A stretch of DNA of 64,000 nt. Source: Tubulanus polymorphus (lineage: Eukaryota; Nemertea; Palaeonemertea; Tubulaniformes; Tubulanidae). The notes beneath the pieces were generated by a model that worked only from the letters and a program-made list of their open reading frames with translations, did no database searches and had not been told where the DNA came from. This document shows positions 11,319-63,763 of this stretch, one piece after another. The position numbers and the translations under genes are program-made. Each line of letters opens with the position of its first letter. The first letter of the stretch is position 1. Where the stretch lies: positions 15,615,775-15,679,774 of the forward strand of contig NC_134032.1 in the NCBI RefSeq assembly GCF_964204645.1, in the 5' to 3' direction.

Positions 11319-11449
11319 GTTCACCGAATTCTTCTGGTGTGAACAGAACTGTTTTCAAGGTTTCAATCACATTGGTTCGATCTCAATCGCTATCGTATAG
11401 ATGCAAAGTGTTGGTTCAATGAAATAGCAGACTCTTAATTTCTGCTGCA

Positions 11450-28091: not shown

Positions 28092-28229
28092 CTGTAAAAC
28101 AAAATACAATTCATTATAATCACACATTAATTACAGAACTAGTTTGAATTCTAAAGCAGTTTGTCAGAGTTTAACTGTGATCCTGAAACAGAACCCCGCC
28201 GGGTCCAGTGCCGGAACAACGATTCATGT

Positions 28230-35667: not shown

Positions 35668-35963
35668 TTAACCCTTTCAGTGCGTCTACACCGCAATGCG
35701 GTGTACGAATCAATGATAGATTTTGCTAGTACACCGCAGTGCGGTGTATTGATTTAATTAGTAATTACTAATTATCTCTCTTGAAAGATGGCAGCACCTG
35801 TCAAACATAGTGAAATATTAGTAACTAACGATACACTGCGCCGCGGTGTAGACGCACTATAGTGGTATTCCTGTTATTCAACACACTAGGGTGGAATTTT
35901 TAAAAATTTTCAAATTATCTCTAGCACTTTAGGGTATTAACTAGTCAGCACTGAAAGGGTTAA
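35668..35963. mobile_element. piggyBac-like MITE inserted in the LINE ORF
   Basis: TTAA (35668-35671), CCCTTTCAGTGCGTCTACAC, ... , CAGCACTGAAAGGG, TTAA (35960-35963). CCCTTT ends with TTAA duplication are typical of piggyBac-group elements. Taking out the 288-bp body and one TTAA joins the LINE frame smoothly (RGF to KQQLLKKY). A second copy in opposite orientation is at 42238. It holds CACCGC(A/G)(A/G)TGCGGTG small palindromes and no ORF. Confidence 0.85.
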
Positions 35964-44126: not shown

Positions 44127-44154
44127 CCATCGCTTGTTCGTTAGCAGGAATCCT
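44127..44154 (-). CDS. 28-nt micro-exon, phase 0 to 1
   Basis: Between TTGCTATTTACAG and GATGG|GTAAGTTCC. Encodes RIPANEQAM plus the first base of the Glu codon completed at 28091. It is the only micro-exon that shifts phase, so it marks the border between the repeated module region and the constant C-terminal exons. Confidence 0.62.
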
Positions 44155-44339
44155 CTGTAAATAGCAATAATATAAAACTCAATGCAACAGAAAATTACTA
44201 CAGCGGGCGCTAACTACAATAGTTCACAGTAGCACTGAACGCGGTCTGAGAAATAAATGGTGCATTCTAAGATGACCTCTTTATTTGCCCTTTGTAATCA
44301 CACAGTATTTATTACCAGACAAGAATTATTTTTTTTTAT

Positions 44340-44747
44340 TACTTGGAGTACAGATCCACATCCCGGAATTTTGCAAAAATCATCAATTCTTTTAGTCTTG
44401 CTTCCTGTTTTCATCACAATTTTCCCAATTAAAAAAAAAAAATTTTTCATGTCCGCCTTGATTTTCAATCCAGTTACTTGTAAAAGTTATGTACATCTCG
44501 ATTTTCAATCTCTTGATTCGCAAAAATTTTTTTTAAATTTTCCTTCATCATTTAAATCATATTCACTCGTTTTTTAAAATTTTTTTTTCTGCAGTCTTTC
44601 CGAGATTTTATGTGGAATATACTCAAGACAATACAAGAAATATTCATACTTTTTTCCTATTCCCTTCAATTTTAAAACGCCTAACAGATAATTTTTTCCC
44701 CTCGTCCTCCAAAAATTTTTCTTGAAAAAATCCGTACTCCAAGTACT
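44340..44747. mobile_element. candidate MITE with TACTTGGAGTAC ends
   Basis: TTACTTGGAGTACAGATCC at the left and ATCCGTACTCCAAGTAC at the right are inverted copies of about 16 bp. The interior is T/A-rich without ORFs that look real. It lies in an intron. Confidence 0.4.
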
Positions 44748-44902
44748 TAAAAAAAAGGCCTTAGAATCAGGGATCGCACGGATAGACGATATTGACAGCA
44801 CAGCGGTATTGATCGTGAACAGTGTAACATGTATTATCAGTTACTGATACTGGCTTAGACCCAACAAACACAGAAAAACATCAAATTAGAATTATAACTT
44901 AC

Positions 44903-44941
44903 CGGAGTATCCGGTAATGCCTCATCTTCCTCTGTAAGATT
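44903..44941 (-). CDS. 39-nt micro-exon (NLTEEDEALPDTP)
   Basis: Acceptor AATTTTTCTAG, donor ACTCCG|GTAAGTTATAATTC. 13 codons, acidic, ending DTP like the 46550 exon. The introns on both sides are close copies of those around 45973 and 46550. Confidence 0.68.
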
Positions 44942-44945
44942 CTAG

Positions 44946-45972
44946 AAAAATTAAAATGATTTCATATAAATGAAGAATATACAAATTCACAGAACACAAT
45001 TTCATGCTACACATTACACGCTGCATTATTAGTACGAGAAACTGAAACCAATATTGATCAGTTTAAAGGCTGGTTTATGTCGATAAGCGATGCGACGCCT
45101 ACCGACGCAACTGAGGGAAACCAACAGCCCACGACTTTTGTGACTGCGCTCAGATTCATAGCAACTGAGGCCGACTAGCTGGATATGACATCCGTCCAGT
45201 TGCTTCCCTGCTCATGTCGGTTATCAACTGCACCGGCTCAGATGGCCAAATGATGGACATTTTGAGAATAGACCTAAATTATTACGAACAAATATATTTT
45301 GAGAAATTATGGATAGACTTAAATTGAATATGAGAAGAAATCCGGGAGTTGTTGTCGGAATGCACACTAGCGACACCTGGTGAGTCCTCATTGAAACGCT
45401 TTCTCACTTAGAATAATAAATAAATTCAATCCGTTCCAGTTCAGATTTTCAATAAATGACAGTGTTGGTTATTATGTCATCATTAGCGCCATCTACACGG
45501 GTATCAGAAGAACTACGCAAGGTGAAAATTGCTTCAAATTTACACTTTTCAATCATTTATATTTCAGTAATCCATCACTCATTACAAAATTTCTCAAAAA
45601 TGATTATTATGTAACACATTATTATCTGTTGTTAAAAACAAAAGCTATTTTAGGCAACACTTGATCGTTGAGAGATGAAAAATAACTAGACCTAATTATA
45701 ACTAGACCTAATAACTAGACTATTAATTTTGAGAATAGACCTGAATTATTACAAACAAATATATTTCTTGTCGCTAGTCGGCTTATGTCGAACCGATAGA
45801 GCAGCAACTGGCGGCCTCTCGTAGGCCACTAGTTGCCACTAATCGGCGATTAACCCTGTTGCGTCAGTAGGCGTCAGTTGCTTGTCGAATCTATTATCAG
45901 TTAGATAATTCACTGAACCTGGCTTAGACCCATTGTACTTAAAAACATCAAACTAGAATTATTATAACTTAC
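44946..45972 (-). other. intron; dispersed 390-bp repeat, copy 2
   Basis: Contains 45298-45690, the second copy of the 43340 repeat, and a GTCGCTAGTCGGC-type block (45778-45880) repeated at 46790. A related stretch at 45070-45240 is partly repeated at 46650-46745. Confidence 0.55.
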
Positions 45973-46038
45973 TGGTGACAACCTTTCAAAGGGCGTTGGT
46001 GGCCGCGCGGCCAAATTCTGGGCCGGATCATTGGTGTT
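45973..46038 (-). CDS. 66-nt micro-exon (NTNDPAQN...PFERLSP), copy 1
   Basis: Acceptor TTTTTTCTAG, donor TCACCA|GTAAGTTATAAT. 22 codons, with a PPTP core. Identical in sequence to the exon 1019 bp upstream in the gene (46992-47057). Confidence 0.68.
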
Positions 46039-46549
46039 CTAGAAAAAATGAAATTATTTCATATAAATGAAAAATATACAAATTTACAGAACACAATTTC
46101 ATGCTACAATCAGGCCACAGAGTGAGTTATATTGAATATTCATATCAAATCTATCTAAACTTGTCAGTGAGATGAACTGTAAGCATTCATCTACTGTAAA
46201 GGCCCCCCACGGACACTAGGGGAATTGAGACGCTGAAAATTCATGTCTTAAGATTTGTCTGTTACTACAACTTAGTTGTTTGATTTAACGAGGGAATTCC
46301 ATAAACTAAAAAAAAAGGAATAATCAGCTTGAACCTGATTAATCCACAATTTTTGTATGATTTATTGCAACGACAGACCTTGGCTCAAAGAGTTAATATG
46401 AAAAATAGTACTTTATTACATCTATTGCAAATCTATTTCACTTTTCTACTGATTCAAAGCTCGTATTCATTGTGTATCGGTCTCGATATGCGACCAATGG
46501 CTTAGACCCAACAAACACAGAAAAACATCAAACTAGAATTATAACTTAC
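46039..46549 (-). other. intron within duplicated module
   Basis: Matches 47058-47560 closely, including an A-homopolymer near 46310 and GGCCCCCCACGGACACTAGG. Confidence 0.7.
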
Positions 46550-46582
46550 TGGTGTGTCCGACTCTTCATCGTCAGATGAATT
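46550..46582 (-). CDS. 33-nt micro-exon (NSSDDEESDTP)
   Basis: Acceptor TTTTTTCTAG, donor ACACCA|GTAAGTTATAATTC. 11 codons, the most acidic of the set. Aligns best with the 44903 exon at both ends. Confidence 0.68.
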
Positions 46583-46991
46583 CTAGAAAAAATAAAATGA
46601 TTTCATATAAATGAAGAATATACAAATTTACAGAACATAATTTTAAGCTACTGAGGCCGAGTAGCTGGATATGAGATCCGTCCAGTTGCTTCCCTGCTTA
46701 TGTCGGTTATCAACTGCACCGGCTCAGATGGCCAAATGATGGACATTTTGAGAATAGACCTAAATTATTACAAACAAATATATTTCTTGTCGCTAGTCGG
46801 CTTATGTCGAACCGATAGAGCAGCAACTGGCGGCCTCTCGTAGGCCACTAGTTGCCACTAATCAGCGATTAACCCTGTTGCGTCAGTAGGCGTCAGTTGC
46901 TTGTCGAATCTATTATCAGTTAGATAATTCACTGAACCTGGCTTAGACCCACTGTACTTAAAAACATCAAACTAGAATTATTATAACTTAC

Positions 46992-47057
46992 TGGTGACAA
47001 CCTTTCAAAGGGCGTTGGTGGCCGCGCGGCCAAATTCTGGGCCGGATCATTGGTGTT
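46992..47057 (-). CDS. 66-nt micro-exon (NTNDPAQN...PFERLSP), copy 2
   Basis: Same length, sequence and splice sites as 45973-46038. The surrounding ~780 bp (46746-47530) is a tandem duplicate of 45727-46510. Confidence 0.68.
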
Positions 47058-47639
47058 CTAGAAAAAATGAAATTATTTCATATAAATGAAAAATATACAA
47101 ATTTACAGAACACAATTTCATGCTACAATCAGGCCACAGAGTGAGTTATATTGAATATTCATATCAAATCTATCTAAACTTGTCAGTGAGATGAACTGTA
47201 AGCATTCATCTACTGTAAAGGCCCCCCACGGACACTAGGGGAATTGAGACGCTGAAAATTCATGTCTTAAGATTTGTCTGTTACCACAACTTAGTTGTTT
47301 GATTTTACGAGGGAATTCCATAAACTAAAAAAAAAAGGAATAATCAGCTTGAACCTGATTAATCCACAATTTTTGTATGATTTATTGCAACGACAGACCT
47401 TGGCTCAAAGAGTTAATATGAAAAATAGTACTTTATTACATTAATTGCAAATCAATTTCACTTTTCTACTGATTCAAAGCTCGTATTCATTGTATATTGG
47501 TCTCGATATGCGACCAATATTGAAGCACGGTCATTCGATATATTTTATCAAATAAATACATTAATGTATCGTTAAAATATTAACAGTAACTGAACAAAAT
47601 AGCCATAAGTCGGCCATCTTGAATCCAAATGGACCAAGT

Positions 47640-48530
47640 TACGTTCAGTACCAGTTCTATCGTTCCCTTATCGCCCAATTCTCAGAGCGCCTCCTGACCT
47701 GCTTTCAGACGCTCGTCAGGATTTCACCTCGCCAGGCGCGGATAGTAGCCACGTGATACGACTCGGGAGGGCAAAATAGATCAGACCAGTGGGTGGCTCC
47801 CATTGGCTCCGAGAATTCATTTTGAGTAGTTATGAAAGGAAGACCCGGAACTGGAATTATTCTGACCAGACGAGGCTTGATGCGACTGTTGAGTCAGGTG
47901 CTCGTTAGTAGCCGCTTGAGAAAGCACCGATGTCGGCACTGTCTGAGACCGGGCCGAACCTTGATCCACCGGAGCCGGACCAGATTTAAGTAGAGTCCGT
48001 ATCCAGACAGCTGTGACAATGATCTACAGCTCATAGTGTCGCATAATAGGACGATACTCTTATTGGAGGATCCGCCGTCCTGATTTCATGCTCCGTTCCG
48101 GAAGGGAAATGAAAACTTTCCGAGGCAAGTTTCATCCCATAATTGCGCATCCGACCGAGTCCCCTCTCTTGACACTGCGGGCGAGATCAGAGTCCGGGGC
48201 CAGATAAGCTTCCATGTTTTACATTAACTCATCTATCATTGTTCTTAAAGACATGTCTAACACTGGCTCTGTTAGAACTGAACGTGACGGTGAAACTAAA
48301 CTGTGAACCATTTTATGAGCTAAGGTGGCCCCCTTTTTGTGGAGCAATCCGAAGCTGATTGCCACAGAAACTTCGCCAGAAGTTGCAACAACTTCTGGGA
48401 ATCGTGATTCCTCATTAAAATGAGACCTCCGGAATCCAGAACTTCACTATCTGACTTCTCAATTATGGGCTTGAGAAACTGGACTAAGGAAGATACACCT
48501 ATTGGAGGTTCGTTCGAACTGAAATATTTT
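47640..48530 (-). pseudogene. DIRS relic (gag/RT junction and gag)
   Basis: Bases 47660-47960 align with about 59115-59560 of the complete element (for example CGGGAGGGC and GACCAGTGGGT, then GAATTCATTT). Bases 48082-48480 align with about 60165-60600. Bases 48490-48540 match 60128-60172. The order is rearranged and no long frame is left. The 47-bp satellite begins right where the relic ends. Confidence 0.75.
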
Positions 48531-48540
48531 CCTGATTAAG

Positions 48541-49732
48541 CTCATTTCAGTTCTATAACCAATCTAACAACTTAAGACCAGTCTAAACTCATTTTGGTTC
48601 TATAACCAATCTAACAACTTAAGACCAGTCTAAGCTCATTTTAGTTCTATAACCAATCTAACAACTAAAGACCAGTCTAAGCTCATTTTGGTTCTATAAC
48701 CAATCTAACAACTTAAGACCAGTCTAAGCTCATTTTAGTTCTATAACCAATCTAACAACTTAAGACCAGTCTAAGCTCATTTTAGTTCTATAACCAATCT
48801 AACAACTTAAGACCAGTCTAAGCTCATTTTGGTTCTAAAACCAATCTAACAACTTAAGATCAGTCTAAGCTCATTTTGGTTAAATAACCAATCTAACAAC
48901 TTTAGACCAGTCTAAACTCATTTTAGTTCTATAACCAATCTAACAACTAAAGACCAGTCTAAGCTCATTTTAGTTCTATAACCAATCTAACAACTTAAGA
49001 CCAGTCTAAGCTCATTTTGGTTCTAAAACCAATCTAACAACTTAAGATCAGTCTAAGCTCATTTTGGTTAAATAACCAATCTAACAACTTTAGACCAGTC
49101 TAAACTCATTTTAGTTCTATAACCAATCTAACAACTAAAGACCAGTCTAAGCTCATTTTGGTTCTATAACCAATCTAACAACTTAAGACCAGTCTAAGCT
49201 CATTTTAGTTCTATAACCAATCTAACAACTTAAGACCAGTCTAAGCTCATTTTAGTTCTATAACCAATCTAACAACTTAAGACCAGTCTAAGCTCATTTT
49301 AGTTCTATAACCAATCTAACAACTTAAGACCAGTCTAAGCTCATTTTGGTTCTATAACCAATCTAACAACTTAAGACCAGTCTAAGCTCATTTTAGTTCT
49401 ATAACCAATCTAACAACTTAAGACCAGTCTAAGCTCATTTTAGTTCTATAACCAATCTAACAACTTAAGACCAGTCTAAGCTCATTTTAGTTCTATAACC
49501 AATCTAACAACTTAAGACCTAGTGTCTAAACTCATTCTAGTTCTATAACCAATCTAACAACTTAAGACCAGTCTAAGCTCATTTTAGTTCTATAACCAAT
49601 CTAACAACTAAAGACCAGTCTAAGCTCATTTTAGTTCTATAACCAATTTAACAATCTAAGACCTAGTGTCTGAACTCATTCTAGTTCTATAACCAATCTA
49701 ACAACTTAAGACCAGTCTAAGCTCATTTTAAA
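48541..49732. repeat. 47-bp satellite, block 1, about 25 copies
   Basis: Unit CTCATTTTAGTTCTATAACC, AATCTAACAACTTAAGACCA, GTCTAAG. A 50-bp subtype has GACCTAGTGTCTAAACTCATT. Multi-unit blocks recur in the same order. Confidence 0.96.
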
Positions 49733-50942
49733 TTTGCATTCGAAACTACTTAAATTTAGATAGTTTGTGACATGATACTAACGATTGTAACGAGCAGTCA
49801 AAAGATTTTGCCGAAAGAAACGACCATAAGTCGACCATCTAAATTCCAATTGGGCAAATATTTTGGGCTGCAGCATTCGCAGTTTGAGTCCATGAACAAA
49901 TTATCAGAACCAAACATCAAAAACTATCAGATTTTGTCTACGGACAGATGGATTGATGGATGGACAAAAAGTGAACGTAATAATTTTAGTCCCAAAAAAG
50001 CATGAATTAGTTAGAACTCTAAAATGCATGATGAATGTTTAATCACTTACAGCTGACGGTCCTGGTATTGGTGATGGATTCTGTAAAGATAAAATAAAAC
50101 AAAATATTAGATGGATATTCATGAATGCATGTATCACTGATTCAGTTTTCAATAAAAACATTAAATCCAGTGCCTCAAAACCAATAATCTGTTTAAATCC
50201 AGATTATTGGTTTTGAGGCACTGGATTTAAACAGATTATTGGTTTTGAGGCACTGGATTTAAACAGATTATTGGTTTTGAGGCACTGGATTTAAACAGAT
50301 TAAGGGAATATGATACGATTTGTCGATTTGATACGCGCAAAATTATTTCAATGAAACGACCTTGAGATATTCGCAAAGCGAGAAAAATACCGCAAAATAC
50401 TGTCCGTACAGTGTCGACCCCTGTGTTATTTAGCCGCATTACACAATTTGACGTTACGCTTACACATTTTGTCAGAGTACAGACGAATAGACGAAATGCT
50501 GATTTTTGGCGGGAATGGCCACCCAATGTAATGCACATATATTCATTGTACTGTTTCATTTTGAACACAGAGATGAAGCTCAGGACAAAGTTAGAATTTT
50601 AAAATCATTCTCGAAATCTAGGCAAATTAGACAAATTTCTGCGGGCTCAATGCAGATTTGGGATAACACTGGCTCTGTGAGAACTGAACGTGACGGTGAA
50701 ACTAAACTGTGAACCATTTTATGAGCTAAGGTAGCCCCCTTTTTGTGGAGATATCCGAAGCCGATTGCCACAGAAACTTCACTAGAAGTTGCAACAACTT
50801 CTGGGAATCGTGATTCCTCATTAAAATGAGACCTCCGGAATCCAGAACTTCACTATCTGACTTCTCAATTATGGGCTTGAGAAACTGGACTAAGGAAGAT
50901 ACACCTATTGGAGGTTCGTTCGAACTGAAATATTTTCCTGAT
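49733..50942. repeat. long exon-bearing module, copy 1
   Basis: A unique segment between satellite blocks: a conserved start TTTGCATTCGAAACTACTTA, the 30-nt exon, a 30-bp repeat present once inverted and then three times direct (50164-50305, CAGTGCCTCAAAACC / GGTTTTGAGGCACTGG), and a DIRS gag relic (50655-50935). ORFs inside are identical in all copies only because the copies are recent. Confidence 0.9.
50051..50080 (-). CDS. 30-nt micro-exon NPSPIPGPSA, copy in long module 1
   Basis: Acceptor TTATCTTTACAG, donor TCAGCT|GTAAGTGATT. The last of six NPSP exons in transcription order and the one next to the 46992 exon. Confidence 0.66.
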
Positions 50943-51716
50943 TAAGCTCATTTCAGTTCTATAACCAATCTAACAACTTAAGACCAGTCTAAACTCATTT
51001 TAGTTCTATGACCAATCTAACAACTTAAGACCAGTCTAAACTCATTTCAGTTCTATAACCAATCTAACAACTTAAGACCAGTCTAAACTCATTTTGGTTC
51101 TATAACCAATCTAACAACTTAAGACCAGTCTAAACTCATTTCAGTTCTATAACCAATCTAACAACTTAAGACCAGTCTAAACTCATTTCAGTTCTATAAC
51201 CAATCTAACAACTTAAGACCAGTCTAAGCTCATTTTAGTTCTATAACCAATCTAACAACTTAAGACCTAGTGTCTAAACTCATTCTAGTTCTATAACCAA
51301 TCTAACAACTTAAGACCAGTCTAAGCTCATTTTAGTTCTATAACCAATCTAACAACTTAAGACCAGTCTAAGCTCATTTTAGTTCTATAACCAATCTAAC
51401 AACTTAAGACCAGTCTAAGCTCATTTTAGTTCTATAACCAATCTAACAACTTAAGACCTAGTGTCTAAACTCATTCTAGTTCTATAACCAATCTAACAAC
51501 TTAAGACCAGTCTAAGCTCATTTTAGTTCTATAACCAATCTAACAACTAAAGACCAGTCTAAGCTCATTTTAGTTCTATAACCAATTTAACAATCTAAGA
51601 CCTAGTGTCTGAACTCATTCTAGTTCTATAACCAATCTAACAACTTAAGACCAGTCTAAACTCATTTTAGTTCTATAACCAATCTAACAACTTAAGACCA
51701 GTCTAAGCTCATTTTA
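50943..51716. repeat. 47-bp satellite, block 2, about 16 copies
   Basis: Starts directly after the DIRS relic TATTTTCCTGATTAAG and carries the same unit types as block 1. It is reproduced with the module in block 3. Confidence 0.96.
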
Positions 51717-52928
51717 AATTTGCATTCGAAACTACTTAAATTTAGATAGTTTGTGACATGATACTAACGATTGTAACGAGCAGTCAAAAGATTTTGCCGA
51801 AAGAAACGACCATAAGTCGACCATCTAAATTCCAATTGGGCAAATATTTTGGGCTGCAGCATTCGCAGTTTGAGTCCATGAACAAATTATCAGAACCAAA
51901 CATCAAAAACTATCAGATTTTGTCTACGGACAGATGGATTGATGGATGGACAAAAAGTGAACGTAATAATTTTAGTCCCAAAAAAGCATGAATTAGTTAG
52001 AACTCTAAAATGCATGATGAATGTTTAATCACTTACAGCTGACGGTCCTGGTATTGGTGATGGATTCTGTAAAGATAAAATAAAACAAAATATTAGATGG
52101 ATATTCATGAATGCATGTATCACTGATTCAGTTTTCAATAAAAACATTAAATCCAGTGCCTCAAAACCAATAATCTGTTTAAATCCAGATTATTGGTTTT
52201 GAGGCACTGGATTTAAACAGATTATTGGTTTTGAGGCACTGGATTTAAACAGATTATTGGTTTTGAGGCACTGGATTTAAACAGATTAAGGGAATATGAT
52301 ACGATTTGTCGATTTGATACGCGCAAAATTATTTCAATGAAACGACCTTGAGATATTCGCAAAGCGAGAAAAATACCGCAAAATACTGTCCGTACAGTGT
52401 CGACCCCTGTGTTATTTAGCCGCATTACACAATTTGACGTTACGCTTACACATTTTGTCAGAGTACAGACGAATAGACGAAATGCTGATTTTTGGCGGGA
52501 ATGGCCACCCAATGTAATGCACATATATTCATTGTACTGTTTCATTTTGAACACAGAGATGAAGCTCAGGACAAAGTTAGAATTTTAAAATCATTCTCGA
52601 AATCTAGGCAAATTAGACAAATTTCTGCGGGCTCAATGCAGATTTGGGATAACACTGGCTCTGTGAGAACTGAACGTGACGGTGAAACTAAACTGTGAAC
52701 CATTTTATGAGCTAAGGTAGCCCCCTTTTTGTGGAGATATCCGAAGCCGATTGCCACAGAAACTTCACTAGAAGTTGCAACAACTTCTGGGAATCGTGAT
52801 TCCTCATTAAAATGAGACCTCCGGAATCCAGAACTTCACTATCTGACTTCTCAATTATGGGCTTGAGAAACTGGACTAAGGAAGATACACCTATTGGAGG
52901 TTCGTTCGAACTGAAATATTTTCCTGAT
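51717..52928. repeat. long exon-bearing module, copy 2
   Basis: Offset exactly 1986 bp from copy 1, with no difference seen in the parts compared. Confidence 0.9.
52037..52066 (-). CDS. 30-nt micro-exon NPSPIPGPSA, copy in long module 2
   Basis: Identical to 50051-50080, including both splice sites. Confidence 0.66.
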
Positions 52929-54228
52929 TAAGCTCATTTCAGTTCTATAACCAATCTAACAACTTAAGACCAGTCTAAACTCATTTTAGTTCTATGACCA
53001 ATCTAACAACTTAAGACCAGTCTAAACTCATTTCAGTTCTATAACCAATCTAACAACTTAAGACCAGTCTAAACTCATTTTGGTTCTATAACCAATCTAA
53101 CAACTTAAGACCAGTCTAAACTCATTTCAGTTCTATAACCAATCTAACAACTTAAGACCAGTCTAAACTCATTTCAGTTCTATAACCAATCTAACAACTT
53201 AAGACCAGTCTAAGCTCATTTTAGTTCTATAACCAATCTAACAACTTAAGACCTAGTGTCTAAACTCATTCTAGTTCTATAACCAATCTAACAACTTAAG
53301 ACCAGTCTAAGCTCATTTTAGTTCTATAACCAATCTAACAACTTAAGACCAGTCTAAGCTCATTTTAGTTCTATAACCAATCTAACAACTTAAGACCAGT
53401 CTAAGCTCATTTTAGTTCTATAACCAATCTAACAACTTAAGACCTAGTGTCTAAACTCATTCTAGTTCTATAACCAATCTAACAACTTAAGACCAGTCTA
53501 AGCTCATTTTAGTTCTATAACCAATCTAACAACTAAAGACCAGTCTAAGCTCATTTTAGTTCTATAACCAATTTAACAATCTAAGACCTAGTGTCTGAAC
53601 TCATTCTAGTTCTATAACCAATCTAACAACTTAAGACCAGTCTAAACTCATTTTAGTTCTATAACCAATCTAACAACTTAAGACCAGTCTAAACTCATTT
53701 CAGTTCTATAACCAATCTAACAACTTAAGACCAGTCTAAGCTCATTTTAGTTCTATAACCAATCTAACAACTTAAGACCTAGTGTCTAAACTCATTCTAG
53801 TTCTATAACCAATCTAACAACTTAAGACCAGTCTAAGCTCATTTTAGTTCTATAACCAATCTAACAACTTAAGACCAGTCTAAGCTCATTTTAGTTCTAT
53901 AACCAATCTAACAACTTAAGACCAGTCTAAGCTCATTTTAGTTCTATAACCAATCTAACAACTTAAGACCTAGTGTCTAAACTCATTCTAGTTCTATAAC
54001 CAATCTAACAACTTAAGACCAGTCTAAGCTCATTTTAGTTCTATAACCAATCTAACAACTAAAGACCAGTCTAAGCTCATTTTAGTTCTATAACCAATTT
54101 AACAATCTAAGACCTAGTGTCTGAACTCATTCTAGTTCTATAACCAATCTAACAACTTAAGACCAGTCTAAACTCATTTTAGTTCTATAACCAATCTAAC
54201 AACTTAAGACCAGTCTAAGCTCATTTTA
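52929..54228. repeat. 47-bp satellite, block 3, about 28 copies
   Basis: About 526 bp longer than block 2. The extra length is a repeat of a run of units (compare 53170-53640 with 53700-54170), so the satellite itself expands by multi-unit steps. Confidence 0.96.
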
Positions 54229-55440
54229 AATTTGCATTCGAAACTACTTAAATTTAGATAGTTTGTGACATGATACTAACGATTGTAACGAGCAGTCAAA
54301 AGATTTTGCCGAAAGAAACGACCATAAGTCGACCATCTAAATTCCAATTGGGCAAATATTTTGGGCTGCAGCATTCGCAGTTTGAGTCCATGAACAAATT
54401 ATCAGAACCAAACATCAAAAACTATCAGATTTTGTCTACGGACAGATGGATTGATGGATGGACAAAAAGTGAACGTAATAATTTTAGTCCCAAAAAAGCA
54501 TGAATTAGTTAGAACTCTAAAATGCATGATGAATGTTTAATCACTTACAGCTGACGGTCCTGGTATTGGTGATGGATTCTGTAAAGATAAAATAAAACAA
54601 AATATTAGATGGATATTCATGAATGCATGTATCACTGATTCAGTTTTCAATAAAAACATTAAATCCAGTGCCTCAAAACCAATAATCTGTTTAAATCCAG
54701 ATTATTGGTTTTGAGGCACTGGATTTAAACAGATTATTGGTTTTGAGGCACTGGATTTAAACAGATTATTGGTTTTGAGGCACTGGATTTAAACAGATTA
54801 AGGGAATATGATACGATTTGTCGATTTGATACGCGCAAAATTATTTCAATGAAACGACCTTGAGATATTCGCAAAGCGAGAAAAATACCGCAAAATACTG
54901 TCCGTACAGTGTCGACCCCTGTGTTATTTAGCCGCATTACACAATTTGACGTTACGCTTACACATTTTGTCAGAGTACAGACGAATAGACGAAATGCTGA
55001 TTTTTGGCGGGAATGGCCACCCAATGTAATGCACATATATTCATTGTACTGTTTCATTTTGAACACAGAGATGAAGCTCAGGACAAAGTTAGAATTTTAA
55101 AATCATTCTCGAAATCTAGGCAAATTAGACAAATTTCTGCGGGCTCAATGCAGATTTGGGATAACACTGGCTCTGTGAGAACTGAACGTGACGGTGAAAC
55201 TAAACTGTGAACCATTTTATGAGCTAAGGTAGCCCCCTTTTTGTGGAGATATCCGAAGCCGATTGCCACAGAAACTTCACTAGAAGTTGCAACAACTTCT
55301 GGGAATCGTGATTCCTCATTAAAATGAGACCTCCGGAATCCAGAACTTCACTATCTGACTTCTCAATTATGGGCTTGAGAAACTGGACTAAGGAAGATAC
55401 ACCTATTGGAGGTTCGTTCGAACTGAAATATTTTCCTGAT
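54229..55440. repeat. long exon-bearing module, copy 3
   Basis: Offset 2512 bp from copy 2. It ends into the satellite block that holds the DIRS element. Confidence 0.9.
54549..54578 (-). CDS. 30-nt micro-exon NPSPIPGPSA, copy in long module 3
   Basis: Identical to the other long-module copies. The intron upstream of it (towards 62323) contains the DIRS insertion. Confidence 0.66.
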
Positions 55441-55820
55441 TAAGCTCATTTCAGTTCTATAACCAATCTAACAACTTAAGACCAGTCTAAACTCATTTTG
55501 GTTCTATAACCAATCTAACAACTTAAGACCAGTCTAAACTCATTTTAGTTCTATGACCAATCTAACAACTTAAGACCAGTCTAAACTCATTTCAGTTCTA
55601 TAACCAATCTAACAACTTAAGACCAGTCTAAACTCATTTTGGTTCTATAACCAATCTAACAACTTAAGACCAGTCTAAACTCATTTCAGTTCTATAACCA
55701 ATCTAACAACTTAAGACCAGTCTAAACTCATTTCAGTTCTATAACCAATCTAACAACTTAAGACCAGTCTAAGCTCATTTCAGTTCTATAACCAATCTAA
55801 CAACTTAAGACCAGTCTAAA
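55441..55820. repeat. 47-bp satellite, block 4, interrupted by DIRS
   Basis: About eight units, the last cut at GACCAGTCTAAA. The same monomer resumes with CTCATTTTAGTTC at 61947 on the other side of the element. Confidence 0.95.
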
Positions 55821-55862
55821 TTACAATTTTTGGAACTAAAATTTGTATTTCCGAGTAGTACT

Positions 55863-55984
55863 TACCCTTTCCTATGGTTTTTGCCAATATTTTCTAAATT
55901 TGGATTTATCGCCAATGGTTTTTCTATACGACCCGGCCCTGCGGTATTGCATTTAGCCACCGGCGAAATCCGCCATCTTTTTTC
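55863..55984. repeat. DIRS inverted terminal repeat, left (3' end of element)
   Basis: TACCCTTTCCTATGGTTTTT through CCGCCATCTTTTTTC. It is the exact inverse of 61807-61928 as far as I can align. An outer 42-nt extension (55821-55862) is unique to this end. Confidence 0.92.
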
Positions 55985-56039
55985 GTCATAGCAGACCAAA
56001 AAAAAAAACAGCTATGCGGGGCAGGTGGGCGGGATTCCC

Positions 56040-56137
56040 ACCATAGGAAAGGGTAAGTACTACTCGGAAATACAAATTTTAGTTCCAAAAATTGTAATAT
56101 TTCCATCGAGTACTGTACCCTTTCCTATGGTTTTTGC
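56040..56137. repeat. DIRS internal complementary region
   Basis: 56040-56097 is the inverse of the left end (55821-55878). 56098-56137 is the inverse of the right end (61907-61946). The two parts abut, so the region equals the complement of a head-to-tail circle junction. In the DIRS1 model it serves as the template that joins the two ends during replication. Confidence 0.92.
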
Positions 56138-56396
56138 TAGACTAGCCTAGCACAAGGATGGTGGGAAAGGTAGATAGAAAAACCACCGCTCAAACGCAAG
56201 GTAAGAGGGAAAAAGAGAGCACTTACCCAAGCACGGAATGGAGCACTGTAGCACAGGGAAGACCGGTTGGCCACAGTGAGTCCGTCCAGCTCAGGGGCCC
56301 CCCCCAGAATTTTGCGAAATTAATACTTGCAGATATGAGCCCAAACTATGTACAAGGATACACCCCCTGTGATCCTGATAATGCTACATAAATATT

Positions 56397-57599
56397 CTAC
56401 ACTAAAGGGTCCGATCGGAAAGAACGGACACCTTGAGCCATGACAACAGGACCCAGTGAAGCTAATGAGCCTAACTGGCCTGAAACATCCCGTAAATAAA
56501 ATGACGTGAATGTCGACGGTGAATTCCAAAAGGCGGCCCGACAGACTTCCTCCAACGGAGCACCCGAAAAGGCTGCGCAGGAAGTAGCCATAGACCTCAC
56601 TTGATGAGAAGCGACTCCCTCCGAGGAAAGATTCTCCTTCAATAAAATGTCCTTGATCATTGAAGAGACCCATCGGGCTACTGTGTCCCGCGAAATATCA
56701 CCCTTTAGGTGATCCAGCAGCGGAATAAATAACCGCTCCCGTGAACCCCTCCGTGAAGCAGAGCGATCTAAATAGAAACACAACGCCCGCACAGGACATA
56801 AAGTCCTGTCCGGGATGCCCGGTTCCACTCGATGTTTTAGGGCTTCAATTCGCCATTGACGCCCAACCGAGCCTGGTCGTTGGTTCTTTGCCAAAAATTC
56901 CAAAGCAGGCCGCAGCGAAACAAATTCATTCGCTGGCCCAAAGACAATGTGACCTGGTCGGACTGAAAGCGCATGAATCTCAGAGCGACGGGCCGAGCAA
57001 GCCAAGAACAGCAAAAATACAGTCTTTTTTGACAAATTTGCAAAAGACGCTGCCGAAAGAGGTTCAAATGGAGCCTCCATTAACTTTTTCAAAATTACAG
57101 ACAGATCCCATGGTGGAACTGTCCTTGTTACCCGAGGCCGGGAAATAGAAAACCCAGCAACCAGCTGGGATATCCGATGATCCCCTGCTACATTTGGCCA
57201 TCCAGAAGCACGCAATGTATGAGAAATCGCGGAGCGGTAACCTTTAATAGTTATGACCTGTAAACCTTTTGCTACAAATAGGTGCAGTAAAAAATCTGCC
57301 AATTGAGCTACAGAGGGTGAGCATGGATCAATTTCCCCTGCAGCACACCAATCCGCAAAATGACTCCACTTGGCATCGTAAATGGTACTTGTTGATGGCC
57401 GCTTAGATCCTGCGATAAAGGAGGCAGCCTGTTCTGAAAAGCCTGAAGCTGACAAGGATCGCTGGACAATGGCCAGGCGAGCAGATTTAACCACTGGCTG
57501 TTTGGATGATGCCGAAAGATCCCCTGAGACAGAAGCGATGGGAAATTCGGAAGAATCCTGGGGTTGTCGCACAGTAGGTTGAGAAGTGGTAGGAACCAT
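56397..57599 (-). CDS. DIRS tyrosine recombinase
   Basis: The likely start is the ATG at 57599 (MVPTTSQPTVRQ), giving 400 residues; the frame is open much further upstream, but that part overlaps RT and looks like an out-of-frame shadow. The N-terminal SAM-like core-binding part begins near SKRPSTSTIYDAKWSHFADW. Catalytic motifs: Arg in ACSARRSEIHAL, His and Arg in SHQVRSMATS, Trp in AAFWNSPSTF and the nucleophile Tyr in FTSFYLRDV. This order (R...HxxR...W...Y) is that of tyrosine recombinases of DIRS elements and replaces the integrase of LTR elements. It overlaps the RT frame by about 290 nt. Confidence 0.92.
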   Translation of the reverse strand: MVPTTSQPTVRQPQDSSEFPIASVSGDLSASSKQPVVKSARLAIVQRSLSASGFSEQAASFIAGSKRPSTSTIYDAKWSHFADWCAAGEIDPCSPSVAQLADFLLHLFVAKGLQVITIKGYRSAISHTLRASGWPNVAGDHRISQLVAGFSISRPRVTRTVPPWDLSVILKKLMEAPFEPLSAASFANLSKKTVFLLFLACSARRSEIHALSVRPGHIVFGPANEFVSLRPALEFLAKNQRPGSVGRQWRIEALKHRVEPGIPDRTLCPVRALCFYLDRSASRRGSRERLFIPLLDHLKGDISRDTVARWVSSMIKDILLKENLSSEGVASHQVRSMATSCAAFSGAPLEEVCRAAFWNSPSTFTSFYLRDVSGQLGSLASLGPVVMAQGVRSFRSDPLV

Positions 57600-59479
57600 T
57601 TCTGAGCCGGCCAACACGGTGCTACCAGAACTATGTTGCAATTGACTGATCTCTCTATTTGATCCAGTAAGCGCGGCAGGACTGGTGTGGGCGGGAACGC
57701 ATACGCATGCATCCCCGACCAGTCCAGAGAGAAGGCATCGACCCCCCACGCTTCCGCGTCTGGAAACGGGGACACAAACAGAGGACACCTCCGATTGAAC
57801 CGGGTGGCAAACAGATCCAGCAGCGGATTGCCAAAAATGCCCCGAACCCGATCGGCTACTTCTTGGTGGAGAACCCATTCTGTCGCAATAGCCTGACCTC
57901 GACGAGACAGAGCATCGGCCATCACGTTCCTTTTCCCTGCTAAATGTGCCACAGTCAGGGACACGCCCTTTGTCTGGCACCAAAGAAGAATTTTGGCCGA
58001 CAGACCTGTGAGGGTTTCTGAGTGAGTGCCCCCTTGGTTCTGAAGGTAAGCCCTCACTGTTGAATTGTCTGTGGCTAACCAAACGTGGTGGCCCTCCACT
58101 CTCCTGTGAAAGAACTTCAGGGCCTTCCACACGGCCAGCATTTCTAGGAAATTTATGTGGTTGGTGGCCTCGTAGCGAGACCATTTCCCGGCTTTGACTC
58201 GGTTCTCCAGATGTGCCCCCCAACCTTGGTGACTGGCATCCGTGAATACACGAACTGGAGCCTCTAACGGGGCTAGTGACACCCCGAGCCGAAGATTCGT
58301 AGTGGCCGCCCACCACTGAAGATCCGGACTTAGATCGGTTGGAGGTACGGGAATCAAGGCCTCCCAGTTGCCCTTCGACTGAGACCAGAAGACCTTCCAA
58401 TATTGTTGCAAGCGCCTGCTTCTGAGGAGGCCTAAGGGCACCACCAGACCCATGGAGCTGATGGAGCCTAGAAGCCGTGACCAGTAACGAGCTGTTCTCG
58501 GGGTTGTGGACACTCCCGCTACAGCTTCTTGAAGTTTGGCCACTCGAACCATAGACGGAAAGACTTTGCCGATTCGGAGATCGAAGTCCATGCCGAGATA
58601 AGTGAACTGTTGGGCCGGCGTCAACTGAGATTTTTCCCTGTTTACGCGGAACCCTAGCTGATGGACTAAGTCCAAGACTGAGGTCATTGCCTCCCGACAT
58701 TCCTGAGCCGAATTCGCGACTATTAACCAGTCGTCGAGGTAAACGAACAGTCGAACACCCCTTGACTGAAGTACCTTCTGAACTGACTTGACCAACTTGG
58801 TGAAAACCCACGGGGCCGTACTGAGGCCAAATGGAAGAGACCTGAATTGGAACTGGCGGCCTTTCCACTTTATCCTGAGAAATCGCCGAGATTTTGGGTG
58901 AATTGGAACCTGAAAGTAAGCATCTTTCAGGTCCAATGAAGCCGCCCATTGACCCGGACGGAGCCCTTGAATCACGTCCTTGGGCTTGGTCATCCGGAAC
59001 CTTGGAATGTCTAGGTGCCGATTGAGGGATGACAGATCTATCACTGTCCGTTGACCCCCTGTGGCCTTTGGTACCATGAATATTCGAGAAAACCAGCCGG
59101 GAGAAGTTTCGTTGCAAACTGGTTCTATCGCTCCCTTCTCTGCCAGTTCCTTGAGAGCCGGAGAGATTAAGGCCTCCTGACCTGGTTTTGGCCGCATGTC
59201 GGGAGGTGACCTCATCAGGCGCGGTCGCCTTAGGAAACGGAGACGGTAGCCCCGAGAGACGACCCGGGAGGGCCAACCGTCTCCAAAGAGGTCGGACCAG
59301 TGGGTTGCTGCCTGCTGCAGACAACCTCCCACTGGTCCCAAGAATTCATTTCGAGTTTTTCCGAAAGGAAGAGCCCCTTTTTGGAGCCTTCCCCTTGCCT
59401 CGATACGAACCGGAACTGTTACGACCGGACGAGGCTTGACACGATTGTTGAAGTTGCGCGCTAGTTCTCCAACCGGCAT
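57308..59479 (-). CDS. DIRS reverse transcriptase / RNase H
   Basis: 723 residues from an ATG at 59479. The RT domain spans about 125-310: WFSRIFMVPKATGG, SLDLKDAYFQVP (catalytic Asp 183), LPFGLSTAPWVFTK and the active site YLDDW (247-251). RNase H spans about 408-530: FTDASHQGWG (Asp 414), Glu 446, ATDNS (Asp 471) and NVMADALSR (Asp 522), all four metal ligands present. The C-terminal part has LLDLFATRFNRRCPLFVSP and a LVAPCWPAQKWF block common in DIRS proteins. It overlaps the gag frame by 134 nt in another frame, so it needs frameshifting, reinitiation or a spliced message. Confidence 0.95.
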   Translation of the reverse strand: MPVGELARNFNNRVKPRPVVTVPVRIEARGRLQKGALPFGKTRNEFLGPVGGCLQQAATHWSDLFGDGWPSRVVSRGYRLRFLRRPRLMRSPPDMRPKPGQEALISPALKELAEKGAIEPVCNETSPGWFSRIFMVPKATGGQRTVIDLSSLNRHLDIPRFRMTKPKDVIQGLRPGQWAASLDLKDAYFQVPIHPKSRRFLRIKWKGRQFQFRSLPFGLSTAPWVFTKLVKSVQKVLQSRGVRLFVYLDDWLIVANSAQECREAMTSVLDLVHQLGFRVNREKSQLTPAQQFTYLGMDFDLRIGKVFPSMVRVAKLQEAVAGVSTTPRTARYWSRLLGSISSMGLVVPLGLLRSRRLQQYWKVFWSQSKGNWEALIPVPPTDLSPDLQWWAATTNLRLGVSLAPLEAPVRVFTDASHQGWGAHLENRVKAGKWSRYEATNHINFLEMLAVWKALKFFHRRVEGHHVWLATDNSTVRAYLQNQGGTHSETLTGLSAKILLWCQTKGVSLTVAHLAGKRNVMADALSRRGQAIATEWVLHQEVADRVRGIFGNPLLDLFATRFNRRCPLFVSPFPDAEAWGVDAFSLDWSGMHAYAFPPTPVLPRLLDQIERSVNCNIVLVAPCWPAQKWFLPLLNLLCDNPRILPNFPSLLSQGIFRHHPNSQWLNLLAWPLSSDPCQLQAFQNRLPPLSQDLSGHQQVPFTMPSGVILRIGVLQGKLIHAHPL

Positions 59480-61595
59480 CCGAAGCCGCCTGAGAAAGCG
59501 CTGAAGTTTGAGATGGTCCTGTTTGCGTCCGTGCCGAACCTTGCGCCGCCGGCGTCGGACCAGAACGCTTTTTCCACGGAGTTCGGGGGTTGGACTTGGC
59601 CTGAACCTCCCGAATCTTCCTCAGCTCTGCGGAAACCGGAGCGCACCAACCGGAGAAGAGACGTGAAGACGTCCCCAATGGGGCTCTCAGCAAAGCATTG
59701 GACACCATATCCGGTAGACGAGTTTTGGCACTGGAGTCCATCACTGACTGACGGGAGGCTAACACCAGATTAGCCTGACCCCGAACCGACAACGGAATTA
59801 CATGCGAAACAGACCGAGCCAAAGATTGGATAATCCGGTCCATTCCCTCCAGTTTTAGGGCAACTGACTCTGGGTCGGAGCCCGCATGAACGGCGGCGTG
59901 AGTCTCGCGAAGCTCACCCGTCAACACCTTAAGTGCCATATCTTGAAACGAACCAACCCTGGTAAGATTGTCCAGGATTGACGTCATGGCCACCAAACCG
60001 GACTTAGGCAAACGAATACCCGACTGTGCTGTAACAGTATCCGGGCTGATCAAAGTATAATCAGCATCCAGGCAGTTATGACTGTGATCCACAGCACCTG
60101 GAGTTGCGTAATACGCCGAGCGAAATGCGCCTATAGGTGGATCGGTTGAACTAAAATATTTCCCAGATTTCATACCCCGTTCTGGAGGGGGAAATGAAAA
60201 AGTTCCAGGCCGACATTCACCCCATAATTGCGTATCCAATCGAGCCCATTCTCTTGAAACCGCTGACGATTCCCGTAAAACGTTAAGATCGGAGTCCGGA
60301 GGGCGATAAGCTTCCATTGACTCACCGACCAGAGGAGCTGCTGTGGGCTTAGCGCGAGTTGCCCCGTGCTTGACAAAGAACTCACTTATCATCGCTCTAA
60401 ATGGCATGTCCCCCGCTGGTTCGGATAAAACTGAACGGGACGGAGATACATTGCGAGCCAGGGAAGCCCCCATCGTCTGGGGCAACCCACAATTGCTTGC
60501 GACAGAAACGACCCCAGAAGGAATTGCCGCCTCTGGGACCGGATCCTCATTGAAATCAGACCCTACCGCAGCATCCAGGAATTCAGAGTCAGAATTCCGA
60601 AAAACTGAGTGGGCTGGCGAACTTCTAACCGGACAATCAGGAATAGGCTTACCTGTTGTAGAAGTTGCAGCGACTTGTTGCGACGAAGATAACAAGTTTA
60701 AAATTTTCTCCTCAAATACATGGAAATCCTTCTGAGTCAGGTATTTTCCAGTATCCCGACGATCATGCCGACTTCGGTGACGGTCCCTCGAACGGGATCG
60801 TGACCTACTAGAAGAATCGCTTTCATCGCTAACCGACGTCGACGAACGATGAGAAGACCGACGGCGAAACTTCCGACAATAACGATCGTAGTCCCTCTCG
60901 CGATCAAACCTTGATCTGCGAGAAGGAGATCTTGCTCGTTTATTACGCTCCCGGCGTCTAAATCTAGTGGGAGAGCGAGCTCTATCCCCGGAGCGACGAT
61001 CAGAATCGGACGATGAACGTACCGGATGTTTTGTACCGGACGACGTCTGGACCGGACCGGTGGCCAAACCGGACCGAACCGGACCGATGCCCGACCCGGA
61101 CCGGACCGGTACCGACCGAACCGGTGCGGGCCGTTCGCGACTACCGCGGCGCGCGCTCGGTTCCGAACATGTAGTCTGAACCGGCCGAACCGGCCGAACC
61201 GGTGAACGACCAGAGACCGGTGAATGACCGGAGACCGGTGCCGGTGAACCAGCGTTCTTCCCCGGTGAACGGAGTTGGGAAGCCGATCGTACCTGAACGA
61301 CCGGCGACCGCTCCGCTTTACGATAAGAAACAGGATTAGAAACGTCGGTTGGCACATCGGCCGAAACCGACGAATCCCTGCTAACTCGACGACGATCTCT
61401 TAGTTTAAGAGCCTTATCGGCCCGAAGCCAAAGGTCCTCGGACCACACGACGCAAATATTGCAAGGATTGCTCCTTGCACATATTTGACCGGATTTGCGC
61501 CTGCACGACGCACATGAATCGTGGTTGTCCCAGGCGCCGAACAAATGCCCGCATCCCTCCCCGCCACGATGCTGACCCTTAGGAGGGGGTGGCAT
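59346..61595 (-). CDS. DIRS gag-like protein
   Basis: The ATG at 61595 gives MPPPPKGQHRGGEGCGHLFG and about 749 residues; a frame extending seven codons further has no ATG. The N-terminal 55 residues hold a Cys/His cluster (CGHLF, HDSCASC, CARSNPCNIC) that may bind metal or nucleic acid. Residues about 100-300 are Pro/Arg/Ser-rich with an RS-type run (SRSRSRSRDRHRSRHDRRD). A middle helical part (ILNLLSSSQQ) may support assembly. The end is Ser/Gly/Lys-rich. The N-terminal cluster is what I recognise as DIRS-type gag. Confidence 0.88.
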   Translation of the reverse strand: MPPPPKGQHRGGEGCGHLFGAWDNHDSCASCRRKSGQICARSNPCNICVVWSEDLWLRADKALKLRDRRRVSRDSSVSADVPTDVSNPVSYRKAERSPVVQVRSASQLRSPGKNAGSPAPVSGHSPVSGRSPVRPVRPVQTTCSEPSARRGSRERPAPVRSVPVRSGSGIGPVRSGLATGPVQTSSGTKHPVRSSSDSDRRSGDRARSPTRFRRRERNKRARSPSRRSRFDRERDYDRYCRKFRRRSSHRSSTSVSDESDSSSRSRSRSRDRHRSRHDRRDTGKYLTQKDFHVFEEKILNLLSSSQQVAATSTTGKPIPDCPVRSSPAHSVFRNSDSEFLDAAVGSDFNEDPVPEAAIPSGVVSVASNCGLPQTMGASLARNVSPSRSVLSEPAGDMPFRAMISEFFVKHGATRAKPTAAPLVGESMEAYRPPDSDLNVLRESSAVSREWARLDTQLWGECRPGTFSFPPPERGMKSGKYFSSTDPPIGAFRSAYYATPGAVDHSHNCLDADYTLISPDTVTAQSGIRLPKSGLVAMTSILDNLTRVGSFQDMALKVLTGELRETHAAVHAGSDPESVALKLEGMDRIIQSLARSVSHVIPLSVRGQANLVLASRQSVMDSSAKTRLPDMVSNALLRAPLGTSSRLFSGWCAPVSAELRKIREVQAKSNPRTPWKKRSGPTPAAQGSARTQTGPSQTSALSQAASDAGWRTSAQLQQSCQASSGRNSSGSYRGKGKAPKRGSSFRKNSK

Positions 61596-61806
61596 AATTA
61601 TCCTGTTACAAATCAAAACAATTCAATTCAATTCAATCAAATTATATTTGTAAATAAAATTCTTACGGAAAAAAAGAAATCAGGGATAACCCCCAAACCG
61701 AACGGACTCACCGTTACGAGAGTGAAAAACTCCCTAATATCCTAATTCCCAGATTTTTACGGCGAAAAAATCCAACGCGTTCTACTGCGAGAACGCCAAG
61801 AAAAAA

Positions 61807-61928
61807 GAAAAAAGATGGCGGATTTCGCCGGTGGCTAAATGCAATACCGCAGGGCCGGGTCGTATAGAAAAACCATTGGCGATAAATCCAAATTTAGAAA
61901 ATATTGGCAAAAACCATAGGAAAGGGTA
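61807..61928. repeat. DIRS inverted terminal repeat, right (5' end of element)
   Basis: Inverse of 55863-55984. Outside it are 18 bases (61929-61946) unique to this end, then satellite sequence. The 5' leader of the element runs from here to the gag ATG. Confidence 0.92.
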
Positions 61929-62322
61929 CAGTACTCGATGGAAATACTCATTTTAGTTCTATAACCAATCTAACAACTTAAGACCAGTCTAAACTCGATT
62001 TTAAGTTTGCATTCGAAACTATTTAAATTTAGATAGTTTGTGACATGATACTAACGATTGTAACGAGCAGTCAAAAGATTTTGCCGAAAGAAACGACCAT
62101 AAGTCGACCATCTAAATTCCAATTGGGCAAATATTTTGGGCTGCAGCATTCGCAGTTTGAGTCCATGAACAAATTATCAGAACCAAACATCAAAAACTAT
62201 CAGATTTTGTCTACGGACAGATGGATTGATGGATGGACAAAAAGTGAACGTAATAATTTTAGTCCCAAACAGCATGAATTAGTTAGAACTCTAAAATGAA
62301 AGATGTTTGTTTAATCACTTAC

Positions 62323-62352
62323 AGCTGACGGTCCTGGTGTTGGTGATGGATT
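62323..62352 (-). CDS. 30-nt micro-exon NPSPTPGPSA
   Basis: Differs from the other five copies by one base (Ile to Thr at position 5). Splice sites are unchanged. Confidence 0.66.
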
Positions 62353-63052
62353 CTGTAAAGATAAAATAAAACAAAATATTAGATGGATATTCATGAATGC
62401 ATGTATCACTGATTCGGGTTTTCAATAAAAACTGTTTAACTAAATTTTGTAGCAAATTCTGAAATTTAAACAGATGGAATGATGCGTTCAGCCGATCCAG
62501 GACAATTTCGCAAACGTAATTTTCAATATTTTTCTTTTTATCCATTTTAGATGTAATTCCGTTCAGAATTCAGGGATATGAAAGAGAGTAACTTTTACTT
62601 CAGACCAGTCAATTTAAGACCAGTTTAAACTCATTCTAGTTCTATAACCAATCTAACAATCTAAGACCAGTCTAAACTCATTTTAGTTCTACTACCAATC
62701 TAACAACTTAAGACCAGTCTAAACTCGATTTTAAGTTTGCATTCGAAACTATTTAAATTTAGATAGTTTGTGACATGATACTAACGATTGTAACGAGCAG
62801 TCAAAAGATTTTGCCGAAAGAAACGACCATAAGTCGACCATCTAAATTCCAATTGGGCAAATATTTTGGGCTGCAGCATTCGCAGTTTGAGTCCATGAAC
62901 AAATTATCAGAACCAAACATCAAAAACTATCAGATTTTGTCTACGGACAGATGGATTGATGGATGGACAAAAAGTGAACGTAATAATTTTAGTCCCAAAC
63001 AGCATGAATTAGTTAGAACTCTAAAATGCATGATGAATGTTTAATCACTTAC

Positions 63053-63082
63053 AGCTGACGGTCCTGGTATTGGTGATGGATT
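63053..63082 (-). CDS. 30-nt micro-exon NPSPIPGPSA, short module 2
   Basis: Exon and splice sites as in the long modules. The bases just downstream in the gene (TGCATGATGAATG) match the long modules rather than its two short-module neighbours, suggesting exchange between module types. Confidence 0.66.
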
Positions 63083-63733
63083 CTGTAAAGATAAAATAAA
63101 ACAAAATATTAGATGGATATTCATGAATGCATGTATCACTGATTCGGGTTTTCAATAAAAACTGTTTAACTAAATTTTGTAGCAAATTCTGAAATTTAAA
63201 CAGATGGAATATGCGTTCAGCCGATCTAGGACAATTTCGCAAACGTAATTTTCAATATTTTTCTTTTTATCCATTTTAAATGTAATTCCGTTCAGAATTC
63301 AGGGATATGAAAGAGAGTAACTTTTACTTCAGACCAGTCAATTTAAGACCAGTTTAAACTCATTTTAGTTCTATAACCAATCTAACAACTTAAGACCAGT
63401 CTAAGCTCATTTTAAATTTGCATTCGAAACTACTTAAATTTAGATAGTTTGTGACATGATACTAACGATTGTAACGAGCAGTCAAAAGATTTTGCCGAAA
63501 GAAACGACCATAAGTCGACCATCTAAATTCCAATTGGGCAAATATTTTGGGCTGCAGCATTCGCAGTTTGAGTCCATGAACAAATTATCAGAACCAAACA
63601 TCAAAAACTATCAGATTTTGTCTACGGACAGATGGATTGATGGATGGACAAAAAGTGAACGTAATAATTTTAGTCCCAAACAGCATGAATTAGTTAGAAC
63701 TCTAAAATGAAAGATGTTTGTTTAATCACTTAC

Positions 63734-63763
63734 AGCTGACGGTCCTGGTATTGGTGATGGATT
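63734..63763 (-). CDS. 30-nt micro-exon NPSPIPGPSA, short module 3
   Basis: The most upstream exon visible. The gene must continue beyond 64000, since phase 0 and the lack of an ATG require an earlier exon. Confidence 0.66.

Follow-up and report, generated by a model that had tools for sequence, protein, structure and literature searches.

A micro-exon array, probably expanded through exon duplication, in an orphan gene family of the nemertean Tubulanus polymorphus

INTRODUCTION

Micro-exon genes (MEGs) of schistosomes and tapeworms are the closest described counterparts of the gene reported here: like it, they combine runs of short exons, mostly divisible by three, with long introns, and they occur in multiple, partly tandem copies in transposon-rich surroundings (PMC10526429, PMC4350168, PMC7653826; here and below, statements on the literature refer to excerpts of the cited papers). 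The present gene was found in a 64,000-nt stretch of the Tubulanus polymorphus genome (contig NC_134032.1, denoted C8, positions 15,615,775 to 15,679,774), hereafter the window. An earlier note on this stretch had described ten exons of 30 to 66 nt on the minus strand, all multiples of three, in phase 0, and starting with Asn. The array is real, and it forms part of a predicted 15-exon gene whose micro-exon-gene layout probably grew as exons were duplicated; the gene's family is an orphan one with a probably nuclear product.

The structural definition of a MEG is at least seven exons, at least half of them shorter than 70 nt and divisible by three (PMC7653826). In the window gene, 12 of the 15 exons have these properties and form a run of 12, so that it is a MEG by this rule; a paralogue on contig C6, with two micro-exons among five exons, falls outside it. 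MEG proteins carry an N-terminal signal peptide (PMC10526429, PMC5825161), whereas the product of the window gene has a basic, hydrophilic start, and by such protein features it is not a member of the schistosome MEG family. The parallel drawn in the earlier note is therefore one of layout, with short modules in an apparent coding gene; it does not extend to a hydrophobic N-terminus or to any homologue found, MEG sequences themselves not having been compared and the general searches having taken the C-terminal part.

Fibrillar collagens have many small phase-0 exons of 45/54 bp that start with the same residue; the modules described here differ from them in being devoid of the Gly-X-Y repeat. 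The PEVK region of titin, where a multi-exon array likewise encodes a repetitive proline-rich stretch, can be viewed as a parallel in form outside parasites; that array expanded by tandem duplication and duplication linked to long interspersed nuclear elements (LINEs), and isoform length varies by splicing (PMC6469411). Titin is, however, a giant muscle protein of other residue make-up, for which splicing variation is documented (PMC6469411). Radical change of short exons within gene families, as seen here between cassette types, is also known from accelerated segment switch in exons (ASSET) in snake venom genes, where short exon sequences are switched to unrelated ones (PMC2711939). ASSET affects parts of exons of venom proteins (PMC2711939), whereas here whole micro-exons differ, there is no secretion signal, and each type is conserved internally. 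A weak search of the open-access literature, made without the organism name, brought up no such family in the titles and abstract starts listed.

RESULTS

A ten-exon array and the predicted gene

The ten exons were recovered by scanning both window strands for a pyrimidine tract with YAG, an exon of 18 to 120 nt that begins with AAY, is divisible by three and is open in frame 0, and a GTRAGN donor: the minus strand contained exactly these ten and the plus strand none. Their lengths, splice sites, phase 0, and initial Asn were thus all reproduced, and the observation of a ten-exon array holds. When length was left free within 15 to 150 nt and the donor was GTAAGT, 15 acceptor-donor pairs, including the ten, were found on the minus strand and 0 on the plus strand, compared to a mean of 0.67 and a maximum of 4 pairs in 60 Markov simulations of one strand. 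The other five pairs are three of 136 nt that share donors of 30-nt exons, one of 140 nt that shares the donor of a 28-nt exon (see below), and one of 125 nt at 28026-28150, minus strand. A generic splice-site score with a cut of 17, the weights of which were not trained on T. polymorphus, was passed by 28 candidates on the minus strand vs 5 on the plus strand, and by 8 of the 10 exons, with both 66-nt exons falling short. The ten exons are not independent of each other: the 30-nt set consists of copies of one exon, and the two 66-nt exons are identical.

The search suggested in the earlier note, past position 64000, yielded a seventh 30-nt exon and the first coding exon. The resulting predicted gene on the minus strand has 15 exons (1116 nt, 371 aa) with matching phases and no internal stop; it starts 3.4 kb beyond the window and stops at 22534. 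In this model, all exons from exon 1 through the 39-nt exon are symmetric, and the array is followed by three more exons, one of 28 nt that is not symmetric and two long ones. The span previously assigned to the array stands for the ten exons but not for its boundary at 44127, which is the end of the 28-nt exon, not a multiple of three. The exons are as follows:

67436-67483, beyond the window, minus strand: exon 1, 48 nt, MPKAKKKTSRKSPYKK, with ATG immediately after the acceptor
64464-64493, beyond the window, minus strand: 30-nt micro-exon, copy 1 of 7, from the extended scan
63734-63763, minus strand: 30-nt micro-exon, copy 2, NPSPIPGPSA, from scan and model
63053-63082, minus strand: 30-nt micro-exon, copy 3, from scan and model
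62323-62352, minus strand: 30-nt micro-exon, copy 4, NPSPTPGPSA, from scan and model
54549-54578, minus strand: 30-nt micro-exon, copy 5, 400-nt surroundings identical to those of copies 6 and 7
52037-52066, minus strand: 30-nt micro-exon, copy 6, 400-nt surroundings identical to those of copies 5 and 7
50051-50080, minus strand: 30-nt micro-exon, copy 7, 400-nt surroundings identical to those of copies 5 and 6
46992-47057, minus strand: 66-nt cassette exon, NTNDPAQNLAARPPTPFERLSP, from scan and model
46550-46582, minus strand: 33-nt cassette exon, NSSDDEESDTP, from scan and model
45973-46038, minus strand: 66-nt cassette exon, second, identical copy, from scan and pair comparison
44903-44941, minus strand: 39-nt cassette exon, NLTEEDEALPDTP, from scan and model
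44127-44154, minus strand: 28-nt exon, RIPANEQAM plus one base, exit phase 1, from the model
23709-23941, minus strand: 233-nt penultimate exon, entry phase 1, from the model and relatives
22534-22926, minus strand: last exon with the stop codon, 130 aa, with 34 intact copies genome-wide

The seven 30-nt copies are spaced by 730, 681, 730, 7774, 2512, and 1986 nt and are located in duplicated blocks with 47-nt minisatellites; six of the seven encode the same ten residues. The C6 paralogue contains a 262-aa frame in five exons of 63, 27, 76, 230, and 393 nt in the same order. Its 76-nt exon takes the place of the 28-nt exon, with which it has the upstream flank and both phases in common, but not the sequence.

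Several candidates were set aside. A 27-nt candidate at C8:15681826, for which paralogues gave partial matches only, is not in the model. The extended exon scan leaves out 12 matches from a repeat at C8:15717-15736 kb (27/102 nt, poor pyrimidine tracts), four 81-nt matches (C8, C3, and C6), two 45-nt matches inside the 66-nt exons, and one 78-nt exon. The latter, at C8:15703342, was first taken as part of the micro-exon gene; together with its adjoining exon, it matches the phosphatidylinositol transfer protein family (PF02121) and was therefore assigned to a neighboring gene.

A multi-copy family with frame-preserving cassettes

In the genome searched (267.8 Mb, 77 contigs), 34 places have a last exon that is intact over 130 residues: 18 on C6, many of them about 33 kb apart, 10 on C3, and 6 on C8. 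When fragments and distant relatives are counted as well, there are at least 116 matches. The distant relatives, on C9 and C11, share the last two exons and were themselves found in similar copies. The 27/30-nt exon, counted by exact pattern matches only, occurs 37 times (27 nt long in 28 cases and 30 nt long in 9; 0 in the control), always with a length divisible by three (37/37); the window gene accounts for seven occurrences, and 30 other places have a single one. The initial Asn noted for all ten window exons does not extend to the family as a rule: 23 of these 37 matches start with GAT (Asp).

For cassettes beginning with AAY and 18 to 48 nt long, the pattern matched 15 times (33 to 45 nt), in every case within this family on C8 and with a length divisible by three (15/15; 1 match in the reversed control). 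At 49 to 79 nt, there were again 15 matches, 7 of them in frame (60, 60, 63, 51, 51, 66, and 66 nt). Six cassettes, of 45, 42, 45, 39, 45, and 42 nt, are present in a relative at C8:15812-15818 kb; their contents are different, and two of them are repeated.

Two further observations concern the family on C8. At C8:15154-15172 kb, 45-nt cassettes of a type designated NTT alternate with partial last exons every ~2.7 kb, an arrangement that could be either a mini-gene array or remnants. A second family member is located directly downstream, reaching window positions 1-6088 from C8:15595775-15615774; where it aligns over long pieces with a C6 unit, the identity is mostly 86-97%.

Coding signal and predicted product

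The pooled ratio of nonsynonymous to synonymous differences per site (pN/pS) was 0.15 for the last exon (8 of the 34 intact copies compared) and 0.29 for 8 sequences, 7 of them distinct, of the 45-nt NTT type, and the values for the 27-nt exon were 0.065/0.315 (6 variants), the micro-exon estimates being based on few sites. At a pN/pS of 0.15 to 0.29, the last exon and two micro-exon types appear to evolve as translated sequence does, and our reading is that the micro-exons are, or until recently were, translated in the expected frame.

The modules are short stretches in which Pro, Ser, Thr, Asn, and acidic residues abound. A serine/threonine-proline (S/T-P) pair is present in all eight unrelated module types, compared to 3.75 expected from shuffling the residues inside each module, a result equaled in a fraction of 0.0012 of 20,000 shuffles; the first version of the test had used 17 partly related modules. 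This content is a lead to possible proline-directed phosphorylation. The protein start, MPKAKKKTSRKS, is basic and hydrophilic, with a best 15-residue hydropathy mean of -0.37 in the first 40 residues, and hydropathy, the method used here in place of a dedicated signal-peptide program, indicated no signal-like start or membrane span. Basic clusters are present at both protein ends, and the C-terminal part is KRKRK-rich, suggesting a disordered, probably nuclear product.

A search of a protein collection with 217 aa of the C-terminal part revealed no homologue outside this genome, and a search with a three-sequence last-exon profile revealed none among the best 8000 candidates scored. Matches in the PDB were weak (best E-value of 0.2), and a Pfam scan of the two long exons found one sub-threshold match and no family above the cut-off. 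In these searches the family is an orphan one; its product is probably nuclear.

Intron flanks and exon content

In 12 of 16 cassette pairs, similarity is lower in the exon than in either of the 100-nt flanks. Between the 66-nt and 63-nt exons, 196 of 200 flank positions are identical, vs 45 of 59 exon positions plus 3 gaps (Fisher P of 4e-7), and the contrast between the 63-nt and 60-nt exons gave a P of 0.002. Cassettes with different exons often have 34-40 of 40 upstream intron bases in common. These comparisons support the view that the exon is kept within a cassette type and replaced between types.

Twelve cassettes (183-218 nt, each folded alone) gave z-scores of -2.05 to 0.70, with no clear excess of structure; RNA folding within cassettes as a means of splicing control is accordingly unsupported. 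The same folding served as the check, at the level of local structure, for RNA pairing that would select one exon, as in Dscam-type mutually exclusive exons, and it showed no clear signal of it.

A stem-loop at the stop codon and the surroundings of the gene

One further feature lies at the end of the gene:

22482-22553, minus strand: stem-loop spanning the stop codon, z of -8.7, in a folded stretch of 161 nt

Its arms, the starts of which are 48 nt apart and one of which is partly coding, are present at all 34 intact last exons. A relative on C11 (L047) has a hairpin at the same place (z of -11.7) with other letters: the position of the stem-loop is conserved between the two, and the sequence is not. 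The idea of a dispersed repeat was rejected: of 80 arm matches, 68 pair up, with one pair at each of the 34 intact last exons, whereas the remaining 12, all on C6, lack a partner arm, and ten of these lie next to fragments of the last exon. Diverged arms would be missed because the search used an exact pattern.

Between the two groups of 30-nt exons, at 56.1-61.9 kb on the minus strand, there is a retroelement with reverse transcriptase (PF00078, E-value of 7.5e-24) and RNase H domains. We take its layout to resemble that of DIRS elements; a Pfam scan of its downstream frame detected no recombinase. Broken frames at 33069-35729 on the plus strand presumably derive from a retroelement of the type without long terminal repeats (non-LTR), and the one frame scanned there (34175-34825) contained no reverse transcriptase. 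Minisatellites, whose units range from 24 to 91 nt, occupy 4302-5709, 10403-11321, 26807-27727, and 48537-54228, and some of them have long open frames through periodicity alone. The neighboring genes at C8:15703-15722 kb (window coordinates 87.5-106.6 kb), on the minus strand, have phosphatidylinositol transfer protein and EF-hand matches.

DISCUSSION

We favor, with a probability of about 0.66, a multi-copy coding family in which the N-terminal half of the protein is assembled from micro-exon cassettes that are copied and switched in content. The sequence supports this much: a cassette is a short phase-0 exon between often near-identical flanks (~40-75 nt upstream and ~35 nt downstream) that multiplies within the gene by segmental duplication of 0.7-2.5 kb, the exon interior being replaced between cassettes with the frame retained. 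Each cassette would contribute a short linker containing an S/T-P pair, which is the minimal target site of proline-directed kinases, and cassette number and type may set the length and site content of the tail ahead of the conserved C-terminal domain. Symmetry allows cassette copies to be gained or lost harmlessly in evolution, and it would make skipping during splicing possible as well.

Several observations weigh against this interpretation. Four of the 16 pairs do not have a faster-changing exon (two with identical exons, a 45-nt pair, and a 33-nt pair in which the exon matches at 31/33 positions vs 68/78 in the upstream flank), and among the 12 that do, three are marginal, by a few bases, and one is based on 7 aligned exon columns. 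The contrast between the 66-nt and 60-nt exons is not significant (P of 0.09), many other cassette pairs match at just 19-29 of 40 upstream bases, the pairs compared are not independent, and an apparent exon change could result from gene conversion evening out the flanks. Assembly duplication could be included in the three blocks around copies 5-7, which are identical over 400 nt. The S/T-P motif was picked after the modules had been seen, and disorder and nuclear location are judged by composition only. Finally, seven of the 49-79-nt matches are out-of-frame copies of one 68-nt version (the remaining match, of 76 nt on C3, is unrelated). They form an array at C8:15045001-15075000 with a period of ~2.7 kb that contains nine copies of the first exon: six without a donor, one with an in-frame stop, one with a GC donor, and one apparently intact. 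Given that most of these first exons are broken, the array looks decayed and can be used as an internal control, in which the frame seems not to be kept where the gene is broken.

Compatible with the cassette interpretation, and in our estimate somewhat short of even odds, is a MEG-like isoform generator, in which the spliceosome would pick subsets of cassettes and thereby produce many disordered linkers. The many isoforms by alternative splicing inferred in the earlier note would fit the symmetry of every exon from exon 1 to the 39-nt exon, the agreement with the structural MEG rule, and the often strongly conserved intron flanks of the cassettes. Conserved intron flanks are a property of regulated alternative exons. 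Symmetric lengths, for their part, are equally expected from in-frame exon duplication with constant inclusion. Moreover, 30 of the 31 genes have a single 27/30-nt exon by the exact pattern, six of the seven copies in the window gene encode the same ten residues, so that skipping would alter mostly length, and local folding in the 12 cassettes provides no clear excess that would point to splicing control.

The cassettes could also be a functionless by-product of segmental duplication, with minisatellite- and transposon-rich introns carrying along exon copies that are spliced or ignored. The location of the 30-nt copies within duplicated blocks with 47-nt minisatellites and the decayed array with its frame-broken 68-nt exon at C8:15046-15069 kb are in line with this possibility, but we consider it improbable in view of the frame retained in 15/15 and 37/37 matches, the low pN/pS of the micro-exons tested, and the exon that is the same in six of seven 30-nt copies while the 400-nt surroundings differ by 5-8% between some of them. 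A selfish or germline-amplified family, the large tandem and dispersed units of which would favor their own transmission, with fast exon change reflecting conflict, appears similarly unlikely. It would account for the 34 intact last exons on three chromosomes, with their ~33-kb spacing on C6, for distant relatives that are also present in similar copies on C9 and C11, and for exon contents that differ between copies with like flanks, but the few frames scanned contained no transposase-like domain.

A more specific form of the favored cassette interpretation, which we regard as tentative and rather doubtful, is a non-secreted, probably nuclear family that evolves by micro-exon content switching, the cassette being a slot for S/T-P linkers. 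If so, the micro-exon-gene layout would have arisen here apart from secretion and antigenic variation. If our interpretation is right, it would be possible to trace how micro-exons arise, multiply, and change in content over more than 30 gene copies, in forms with 5 to 15 exons. Flanks that outlast the exons they enclose would be unusual, and any control of splicing by them could be tested directly.

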